NCBI GenBank assembly: GCA_032622095.1
Contig: CP136064.1
Location: forward strand, 51,528,073 to 51,592,072
Source of the DNA: Siphonodentalium dalli
Taxonomy: Eukaryota; Mollusca; Scaphopoda; Gadilida; Siphonodentaliidae
Reading direction: 5' to 3'
Length of the DNA stretch: 64,000 bases
How positions within the stretch are numbered: the first letter of the stretch is position 1; each line of letters starts with the position of its first letter. Position numbers and translations under genes: made by a program. The notes below the pieces were generated by a model, which did not search any database, was not told the origin of the DNA, and saw only the letters and a list, made by a program, of their open reading frames with translations. Shown piece by piece: positions 26,655 to 59,888 of this stretch.

Positions 26655-28140
26655 CCACCCTCCAGGCCACACCCCTCATCCGATCACCACAAAACTTCTT
26701 ATGGATCTTCGGGGTGACCCCTAGATTGGAGCCATCGATTATTTTCCGAAATACGTAAAAACAAATGGCCGCCAGCAGCCATTTTGGATTTCAATTTGAA
26801 TCTATTGGCACACCCTGCAGCCCGCATTTATTGGAAAAATGTTTTGAAGATTGACAGGCATGTTTAGGATTGCCACCAGATAGGAGCTTTCAAATTTTAG
26901 CGATTTTCGATGAAAAATATGGCCGCCGGCAGCCATCTTCAATTTTACTCTTAGCATGACTAAATCCTTTGGCACACCCTACAGACCACATTCCTCATCT
27001 AATCGCCACCAAACGTCATATGGATCTCCGGGGTGACGTCTAGATGGGAGCCATCGATTATTTCCGAAATTCGTTAAAAACATGGCCGCCAGAAGCCATC
27101 TTGGATTTTACTCTTTGCATGACTAAATCCTTTGGCACACCATATAGACCACTTCCATCATCCGATCGTCATCAAACTTCATACCAATTTTCGGGGTGAC
27201 CTCTAAATGGGAGCAATCAATTATTTCTGAAATTCGTTATAAAATATGGCCGCCAGCAGCGATCTTGGATTTAAAATAGATAGATAGTTTAATGACATAA
27301 AACATCCACACGAGACCGATGTCAAAATAACAAATATATATAACAATGTCAACAATGATTCAAACATAATACATATACTGCAGTAACTATTTCATTATTA
27401 TATCAGCAGAATCTGACCTTTCTGTGAAAAATGTCCGGACCATGTTGCAGATTATGTTGCATGTATGAGGCTCGTTATTTTGCATTATGTATTGGAATTT
27501 TTGGCCTTCATTCAATCCAATAAATTTATCACTCATCATCCCTATCTCATAAAAGAAGTGTTTACGCATCTTATCATATGTGTTGCAGCACATAAGGAAG
27601 TGTTCTTCATTCTCAACCTCCATGTTACATTTCCTACAAATTCTTTCATCAATATGAATCCTTCGGCACACACTGCAGCCCGCATATAGTTAAGAAGAAA
27701 TGCGTTGGAAATTTTCAGGCATGATCAGGATCACGTCTAGATGAGAGTTATCGAATTTGAACGATTTTCGTCAGCCATTTTGGATTGTACGTTTTGCATG
27801 ACTAAATCCTTCGGCACAACCCACAGGCCACATCCCTCATCCGATGGACACCAAACGGCATAAGGATCGTCGGGGTGACCCCTAGATAGGTACCAACGAT
27901 ATTTTCCGAATTTCATTAAAAACATGGTCGCCAGCGGCCATCTTTGATTTTACTCTTTAAATCATTTGGTGCACCCCACGTGCCACATCCCTCATCCAAA
28001 CATCATATGGTTCTTTGGTGTTATCTCTATATGGAAGTTGTCCAATTATTCCGAAATTTGTTAAAAAACATGGGCGCCTGGAGCCATCTTGGATTTCACA
28101 TTTGAATCCATCGGCACACCCTGCACCCCACATTTAGTGG
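26655..28140. repeat. Degenerate ~160-bp tandem repeat (ATGGCCGCCAG family), interrupted by a LINE
   Basis: The landmark ATGGCCGCCAGCAGCCAT recurs at about 26766, 26921, 27083 and 27245, and after the LINE insertion in worn form at about 27768, 27924 and 28069. Between landmarks each unit repeats 'CACACC..GCAG.CC.CAT', 'CTCATC..ATC..CACCAAAC' and 'GGGGTGACC.CTAGAT.GGAGCC'. Spacing is 155-162 bp in the first four units. Divergence between units is high, so this is old. A lone further unit (ATGGCTGCAGGCGGCCATG) sits at about 29951. The family is common wording in lophotrochozoan genomes in my recollection; that is not verified here. Confidence 0.8.
27277..27655 (-). mobile_element. 5'-truncated LINE 3' end: zinc-knuckle C-terminus plus 3' tail
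   Basis: The minus-strand frame (about 27655 to the stop at 27387) encodes a cysteine-histidine motif ICRKCNMEVENEEHFLMCC followed by Y..MRKHFF. This C-x2-C...H-x4-C pattern with EEHFL is seen at the extreme C-terminus of many invertebrate non-LTR retrotransposon ORF2 proteins. After the stop comes a ~110-nt 3' UTR ending in ATGTCATTAAACTATCTATC, a short-tandem tail typical of LINEs. The upstream part of the frame (the initial MCRR) is already host repeat sequence, so the ATG at 27671 is fortuitous. The copy is inserted inside a unit of the ~160-bp tandem repeat, between GGATTT and GAATCC. Reverse transcriptase and endonuclease are absent. Confidence 0.65.
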
Positions 28141-59541: not shown

Positions 59542-59556
59542 AAGACTGATGATTTG
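59542..59556 (+). repeat. Left target-site duplication of the U2-headed retroposon
   Basis: AAGACTGATGATTTG at 59542-59556 is repeated exactly at 59874-59888. Confidence 0.95.
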
Positions 59557-59873
59557 GATCGCTTCTCGGCCTTTTGGCTAAGATCAAATTGTAGTATCTG
59601 TTCCCCACTGGCGATGAACAGGGTAGCTACCCTTTTATCGAGCCCACACTTTGAGATACGTCTCTGATGGTGGTCGCTCCACCAGACGGGACTTTTACGG
59701 TATGGGTTCGCAGCCTGATGAGGACAATTGGTCCTGACTGACTGCCGCTTCGTGCGGGGACTGACATCCGACTGATACTTTGACCATCTCGTAAGGGTGG
59801 GCATCATCTCTGAAAGTGGGGATGCCCAGCCGACAAGAGTGGTCCGCAATGGCCCCGGGCTGGAACAAAAAAG
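59557..59873 (+). mobile_element. U2 snRNA-headed retroposon (candidate SINE), 317 bp
   Basis: Positions 59558-59603 match the first ~45 nt of U2 spliceosomal RNA (ATCGCTTCTCGGCCTTTTGG, CTAAGATCAA, GTAGTATCTGTTC), with only a one-base insertion and a substitution near the branch-site pairing region. After TCTGTTC the sequence leaves U2: there is no stem IIa, Sm site or stems III/IV. The 270-nt body is GC-rich and contains foldable blocks (AACAGGGTAGCTACCCTT, GAGGACAATTGGTCCTG, GGGCATC...GATGCCC). It ends GGAACAAAAAAG. A perfect 15-bp target duplication encloses it. This is the layout of a SINE with an snRNA head, or less likely a single chimeric retrogene made by template switching. No tRNA or 7SL promoter boxes were recognised. 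Confidence 0.85.
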
Positions 59874-59888
59874 AAGACTGATGATTTG
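59874..59888 (+). repeat. Right target-site duplication of the U2-headed retroposon
   Basis: Exact 15-bp repeat of 59542-59556, following the A-rich end of the element. Confidence 0.95.

Follow-up and report, generated by a model that had tools for sequence, protein, structure and literature searches.

A Pol III promoter in the head is the usual defining mark of a SINE, although such an internal promoter is not universal among them. SINEs headed by an snRNA were reportedly described by Kojima in 2015 as SINEU. These elements are said to start at nt 1 of the snRNA, to carry an unrelated body, to have gained U1 or U2 at the 5' end repeatedly, and to prefer one repeat family for insertion. SINEU is reported from crocodilians. 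Other elements are known for tandem copies: R1-like site-specific LINEs form tandem arrays with target sequence between head-to-tail copies, and metazoan retrozymes are units of ~300 nt that are often tandem. The accessible parts of later papers cite SINEU for its U snRNA head (PMC8010984, PMC7245038, PMC13174262), and the accessible part of one of them ascribes SINEU and the 28S-derived SINE28 jointly to avian, crocodilian and mammalian genomes (PMC8010984). In a partial literature search, which is not proof of absence, no paper stood out that describes an snRNA-headed SINE from an invertebrate, or SINEs arrayed with the target duplication repeated.

We analysed a stretch of 64,000 nucleotides from the scaphopod Siphonodentalium dalli (the window), which contains an insert of 317 bp at 59557-59873 bracketed by a perfect 15-bp duplication, AAGACTGATGATTTG, and ending in the A-rich tail GGAACAAAAAAG. 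The original prediction had described a head almost identical to the 5' end of U2 snRNA including its branch-site pairing region, exact 15-bp direct repeats around the insert, and a short A-rich tail. All three descriptions hold, and the head differs at one position in 46 from nt 1-46 of the genome's own U2 genes. An Rfam hit to U2 spans 59558-59635 and scores 50.4 bits against a gathering cut-off of 46, with matched stretches confined to the opening 46 nt and the final 7 positions. The predicted RNA fold of the element is more stable than its shuffles (z -3.07, with 0 of 100 shuffles as stable), so the earlier description of the body as structured stands. Its description as unrelated to U2 stands by any strong measure, although weak U2 remnants are possible. 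The insertion had also been called recent. This is true only in part: the head is 1/46 off U2 and the best listed relative is 89% identical. The element is under 1 kb and has no coding capacity, as expected of a SINE: one mechanical ORF of 145 aa spans it, lies on the minus strand, opposite to the element's RNA strand, and extends into the flanks.

Table 1. Features of the U2-headed insert and its flanks, in positions of the window.
Feature	Position	Strand	Basis
Left target-site duplication AAGACTGATGATTTG	59542-59556	.	sequence; identical to 59874-59888
Right target-site duplication AAGACTGATGATTTG	59874-59888	.	sequence; 15/15 match to the left one
Extra G ahead of U2 nt 1	59557	+	absent from the target duplication and from the U2 genes inspected (T, or C, at -1)
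Head, U2 snRNA nt 1-46 (stem I, branch-site pairing region)	59558-59603	+	45/46 identical to host U2
TTTT run within the head	59572-59575	+	TTTT in first 30 nt of 102/105 copies
Hairpin CUGUUC...GAACAG linking the last U2 nucleotides to the body	59598-59621	+	two pairs with changes on both sides
Body, non-U2 by strong similarity, common to the sampled subfamilies	59604-59863	+	sequence comparison
Hairpin GAUACGUCUC...GGGACUU, possible enlarged U2 stem IIb remnant (weak)	59655-59694	+	single-sequence fold; absent from consensus fold
Conserved block GGTTCGCAGCC, putatively B-box-like (Pol III)	59705-59715	+	conservation among copies
Short A-rich tail	59864-59873	+	sequence

The window insert is a copy of a dispersed non-autonomous retroposon family, a SINE with an snRNA head. 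A full-genome search gave 648 first-look candidates, of which 40 were scored, and these yielded 60 listed matches. Besides the window copy itself (100%) and a 42-nt piece (93%), the listed matches are 75-89% identical to it. Pattern searches found the head/body junction at 198 places in the genome, the body at 510 and the 3' end at 652, and each reversed pattern at 0. Up to three mismatches were allowed for junction and body and up to two for the 3' end, and with these settings the three patterns recover 89, 92 and 94 of 105 near full-length copies (52 loci). The pattern counts include copies amplified within other repeats (repeat Y and a 3.9-kb satellite, both described below) and are not insertion counts. 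Three sets of copies were used: 46 in a first majority sequence, 105 in a second set, from which L070 was excluded, and 24 in a structure alignment.

Target duplications differ from locus to locus. Exact duplications of at least 8 bp adjoin the head in 17 of 44 loci, compared with 1.4% of 1892 mismatched flank pairs; the remaining 27 of the 44 have no exact 8-bp duplication adjoining the head, in a test that misses copies with a 5' extension. Segmental duplicates, U2-gene loci, contig ends, most repeat-Y loci, L002-L004, L082 and L119 were left out of this analysis and of that of the junctions. Duplications in the junction set are 8-16 bp long and 8 of 13 start with A, as for LINEs whose endonuclease nicks before A-rich sequence. 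The family thus has the defining features of a SINE that can be tested: dispersed copies, varying duplications and a non-coding length below 1 kb.

These results bear out the predicted SINE family with a U2 head and a different body, with many genome copies sharing head, body and tail between differing duplications. The prediction had named two findings that would speak against it, a single copy in the genome and a body that is a genuine lineage-specific U2 3' half. The family occupies hundreds of places, and the host's U2 genes have an ordinary 3' half. Copy number also bears on whether the insert is a one-off chimeric retrogene, made when template switching fused U2 with an unrelated RNA in the manner of U6/LINE-1 chimeras. 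The abrupt join of U2 nt 1-46 to non-U2 sequence inside a target duplication has that form, and chimeras of LINE-1 with U1-U6 are reported in the accessible part of one paper (PMC13174262). Against the pattern counts with their empty reversed controls, and against many dispersed copies that each have their own duplication, a one-off event is extremely improbable, and it survives solely as the founding event of the family.

Next to no weight falls on the view that the inserts come from a LINE which targets U2 genes, Utopia or Keno, and are not SINEs. Utopia inserts at U2 nt 38/39, inside the length of the head, according to the accessible part of its description (PMC4640811), but U2 here is the 5' end of the insert from nt 1 and lies within the target duplication. 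The copies examined have no LINE attached to them, and the target flanks are not U2. Two further candidates were rejected. A U2 gene or U2 retropseudogene does not fit, since only nt 1-46 are clearly U2 and the similarity is not full-length, compared with 185 bits over 192 positions for a full-length host U2 gene. A hammerhead retrozyme does not fit either: in the window element, Rfam at E <= 10 gives no hit other than U2 and one snoRNA match that is due to chance. The exact 24-nt junction pattern had 0 matches in viral contigs.

The host U2 genes are ordinary: 29 of 46 scored Rfam matches reach at least 184 bits across all 192 model positions. A tandem array of U2 genes with a 920-bp period lies at C5:203269600-203304407, and several weaker U2-like matches lie at C5:203.8-204.8 Mb. 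Because these genes have the ordinary 3' half, the body is not the host's own U2 3' half, and a lineage-specific U2 3' half was rejected as its source.

A related explanation is that the body is a remodelled U2 3' half, and that the family arose from a whole U2 gene with enlarged stem-loops. Two body motifs, TGATACGTCCCC and GGGACTTC, flank a hairpin predicted from the single-sequence fold and follow each other as in U2, and one subfamily retains U2 nt 1-51. When bodies were aligned to U2 with gaps, the scores of subfamilies CL1 and CL4 were reached by 4-6 of 500 shuffled bodies under two schemes and by 15-22 of 500 under a third, and the score of the 46-copy majority sequence was reached by 11 and 79 of 1000 shuffles. 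However, the score of CL9, the window's own subfamily, was reached by 142-227 of 500 shuffles and is not significant, Rfam aligns nt 1-46 and little beyond, the stem IIb-like hairpin is absent from the consensus fold of 24 copies, and the true U2 genes are ordinary. Full colinearity of body and U2 was rejected on the same comparisons, in which shuffles reach the score in ~1-4% of cases for CL1 and CL4 and in 1% and 8% for the majority sequence. We regard a remodelled U2 half as unlikely, though the body may keep a remnant of U2 stem IIb.

Of 46 pairs predicted in the consensus fold, 8 have both partners changed, a count uncorrected for relatedness of the copies, and two pairs with such changes fall in the junction hairpin CUGUUC/GAACAG. 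These changes suggest that an RNA structure is maintained. A dispersed repeat called Y (L096-L099, L078-L080, L084) has amplified an embedded SINE copy, and it bears a short stretch resembling the SINE body, GATACGTCCCC...GGGACTTCCACTG. Repeat Y was considered as the source of the body, a reading that was dropped because the transfer may have run either way.

The heads are more constant than the bodies. The majority heads of CL1, CL4 and CL9 have 0/46 differences among them and that of CL10 has 1/46, and three of these four are identical to host U2. The bodies of the subfamilies differ at 16-51 of ~255 positions (6-20%). When 47 loci are compared in pairs, heads have a mean identity of 0.937 and bodies one of 0.836, and the head is exactly host U2 in 18 of these loci. 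Five loci (L015, L020, L038, L049, L060), segmental duplicates judged by eye and by identity, were omitted from this comparison and from that of the arrays, and their copies remained usable as outside matches. Since the head is constant over differing bodies, the bodies diverged in source lineages with the head tied to U2, kept identical either through selection or because U2 RNA renews it.

Three different junctions between U2 and the body make such renewal plausible. The usual joint is after U2 nt 46. In 10 fetched loci (L081 and L082 are probably duplicates) the joint is after nt 23, directly onto body position 82. In 4 places it is after nt 51, with native U2 sequence past the usual joint and an intact 5' end in L118. 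The nt-23 form could have come from the nt-46 form by deletion, and the nt-51 form cannot have done so through deletion alone. The three joints fit recurrent addition of snRNA at the 5' end, with deletion as another possible route to the nt-23 form.

How the element's RNA begins can be approached from its 5' junctions. In 12 junctions the base preceding U2 nt 1 can be separated from the duplication; it is G in 10 of them, and in 7 of those 10 it is the sole extra base. This G is not derived from the flank of a U2 gene, where the base is T in the genes inspected (array genes in L005 and L007; L055), or C in L052, a U2 copy without the normal 3' end. An extra base of this kind is a known outcome when a cap is reverse-transcribed. 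The G may have been inherited from source copies, in which case it counts as few events. The idea that capping helps the element, raised in the original prediction, gains some support from this base. Nearly every head has, within its opening 30 nt, a TTTT run (Table 1), which would be predicted to terminate Pol III transcription.

Upstream sequence was compared as well. Against two U2 upstream regions, 43 upstream flanks have a mean score of 16.0 and shuffles 15.6, in a weak test, as the two regions score 14.0 against each other. In L091, L094 and L104, and probably in L081 and L108, ~40 nt of a repeat called X stand ahead of U2 inside the target duplication, and therefore these RNAs began upstream of the element. 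Altogether we infer that the element's RNA would be a capped Pol II transcript relying on outside promoters. In the other route, Pol III would transcribe the element from internal boxes and the U2 head would be a chance passenger; this route would draw on the conserved body block GGTTCGCAGCC and a head block, TGGCTAAGAT, which resemble B and A boxes. It seems quite improbable given the TTTT run in 102 of 105 heads, the extra G that points to a cap, and ARAGORN finding no tRNA in 6 loci.

Many copies stand head to tail at one site. In the first search, 10 of 40 loci hold two to four near full-length copies in this arrangement, two of the 10 being segmental duplicates of others. Visual inspection shows the target duplication again between neighboring copies in 9 of the 10 arrays, exactly in L030 and L045, for example, and in altered form in L021, L036 and L040; in L033 no recurring duplication was seen between the copies. 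Larger arrays are L057, with five units, and L056, with 18 units, one of them partial, and an interruption of 0.95 kb.

The array copies are often related to copies elsewhere. In 10 of 17 arrays (L019, L021, L026, L033, L036, L040, L045, L059, L061, L067) the body of every near full-length copy is nearer to another fetched locus than to its neighbors. The margins, outside versus inside the array, are wide for L040_1 (0.925 vs 0.796) and L045_1 (0.968 vs 0.828), and tiny for L036_2 (0.870 vs 0.869) and L021 (0.02-0.03). Two bodies have 100% matches elsewhere: L059_1 matches L061_2, and L067_1 matches L056_15. Array neighbors are the nearest relatives of some or most copies in L030, L056, L057, L058, L062, L068 and L069, and two "outside" verdicts for L057 are ties at 1.000. 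L062 combines subfamilies CL1 and CL4 between identical 15-bp duplications. With copies nearest to other loci and subfamilies mixed in L062, the copies therefore came successively to one site.

Unequal exchange could instead have made the arrays as tandem duplications of one insertion that later diverged. Adjacent L056 units are 93-99% alike and L057 units 98-100%, and from this likeness arrays also expand by exchange. An odd 5' start is common to the copies within L058, L062, L068 and L069, and in two variants within L056, and three units of L115 share one truncation, the last unit having a different 3' end. These shared starts count against independent insertions; either the newcomer's 5' end was copied from the resident, or exchange within the array levelled the copies. 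But the ten arrays whose copies are all nearest elsewhere, with clear margins or matches in L040, L045, L059 and L067, the mixture of CL1 and CL4 in L062, and the varying 5' starts within L021 and L033 make tandem duplication doubtful as the general explanation. Successive insertion at one site is preferred. A satellite with a 3.9-kb period (C3:85112921-85184247; L070) has captured SINE nt 2-202.

The family also returns to certain targets. In repeat X (reference of 560 bp, made of the joined flanks of L064), the SINE lies at X positions 231-255, a hotspot of 25 bp, in seven loci (L031, L043, L064, L088, L092, L100, L112). Twenty other X copies were compared, of which 18 run through the hotspot stretch and two start at X 205. 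The hotspot is defined by the seven SINE loci at 231-255. The X sequence fused before the U2 head inside target duplications is 201-243. By eye, two more repeats were struck twice at nearly the same base, one in L065 and L072 and one in L030 and L115. The L065/L072 target is a tRNA-like repeat: read by eye on its reverse strand, the flank has stretches like an A box and a T arm. No tRNA is predicted there by ARAGORN.

The 3' end of the SINE had been proposed as a way to its partner LINE. No LINE was found through the 3'-end pattern in 16 fetched loci absent from the body list, 15 of which carry at least 110 nt of SINE body, with L114 having the last 25 nt only. Likewise, no LINE was found at the hotspot in the 20 X copies. 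Elsewhere in the window, at 27390-27689 on the minus strand, there is an open frame with a CxxC...HFLxxC pattern, which we take to be like the C-terminal finger of LINE-type reverse transcriptases. A direct tandem array of ~1.24-kb units occupies 109-24203 of the window, and the units listed have the same or nearly the same mechanical ORF of 165 aa on the minus strand.

The explanation which we consider probable as a whole is a SINE with a capped RNA that starts at U2 nt 1, is copied by a LINE, and stacks at the same site. The RNA would begin at U2 nt 1, run into the structured body and end in an A tail, and the extra 5' G and the TTTT run would mark it as capped and made by Pol II. Its copying, by target-primed reverse transcription from the A tail, would fall to a LINE whose endonuclease cuts ahead of A-rich sequence. 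As the bodies drift, selection would hold the head identical to host U2, or switches of template to U2 RNA would renew it. After insertion, the new A tail beside the duplicated site would again make a good nick site, and further copies would land in the same place, giving arrays of SINE, A tail and duplication. In some arrays the newcomer's 5' end would seem to be taken from the resident copy.

A more specific version of this is only tentative. A U2-headed, capped, Pol II-type SINE might build satellite-like arrays when reverse transcription is primed at the junction of the resident's A tail and target, and homology to the resident lets its sequence supply the missing 5' end. The newcomer would bring its own 3' part and inherit the resident's 5' junction and duplication, as may have happened in L056, L058, L062 and L069, and in L115 with its shared truncation, with the head kept identical to host U2.

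This family matters for several questions. A Pol II snRNA head raises the question of how a small element without an external promoter stays transcribed, and whether snRNA capping and handling can feed a retroposon. A frozen head over drifting bodies permits a direct test between selection on the head and renewal from U2 RNA. The same-site arrays are a natural series of insertion events that illustrate how a SINE may seed a satellite, and stacked U2-headed copies open a route to studying the change of small RNAs into genomic parasites.

Compared with other systems, R1 arrays share the head-to-tail copies separated by target sequence, but R1 is strictly site-specific, whereas the targets here vary by locus. 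Retrozymes differ in that the window element has no Rfam ribozyme at E <= 10, and A tails and duplications separate the units here. In the accessible part of their report, snRNA/LINE-1 chimeras likewise combine an snRNA with the 3' part of another RNA, a target duplication and an A tail, but U6/LINE-1 chimeras usually spread no further, whereas here one body is found at hundreds of places (PMC13174262). The Utopia and Keno LINEs and the U2-derived satellites of sea squirts also concern retroposon biology around U2; in the accessible part of that paper the U2 genes are their target, whereas here U2 is the head of the element (PMC4640811). The nearest named group is SINEU, through the shared feature of a U snRNA head at the 5' end, as the accessible parts of the citing papers describe it; this is a likeness by description. 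The other traits ascribed to SINEU, a start at nt 1, an unrelated body, repeated 5' additions and a preferred repeat family, would be further likenesses. Compared by description only, the present family differs in its frequent same-site arrays, its three U2/body joints and, as far as is known, its host. What is new here is the contrast between head and body, the G before nt 1 together with the TTTT run, the stacking of copies, the three joints and the hotspot in repeat X.
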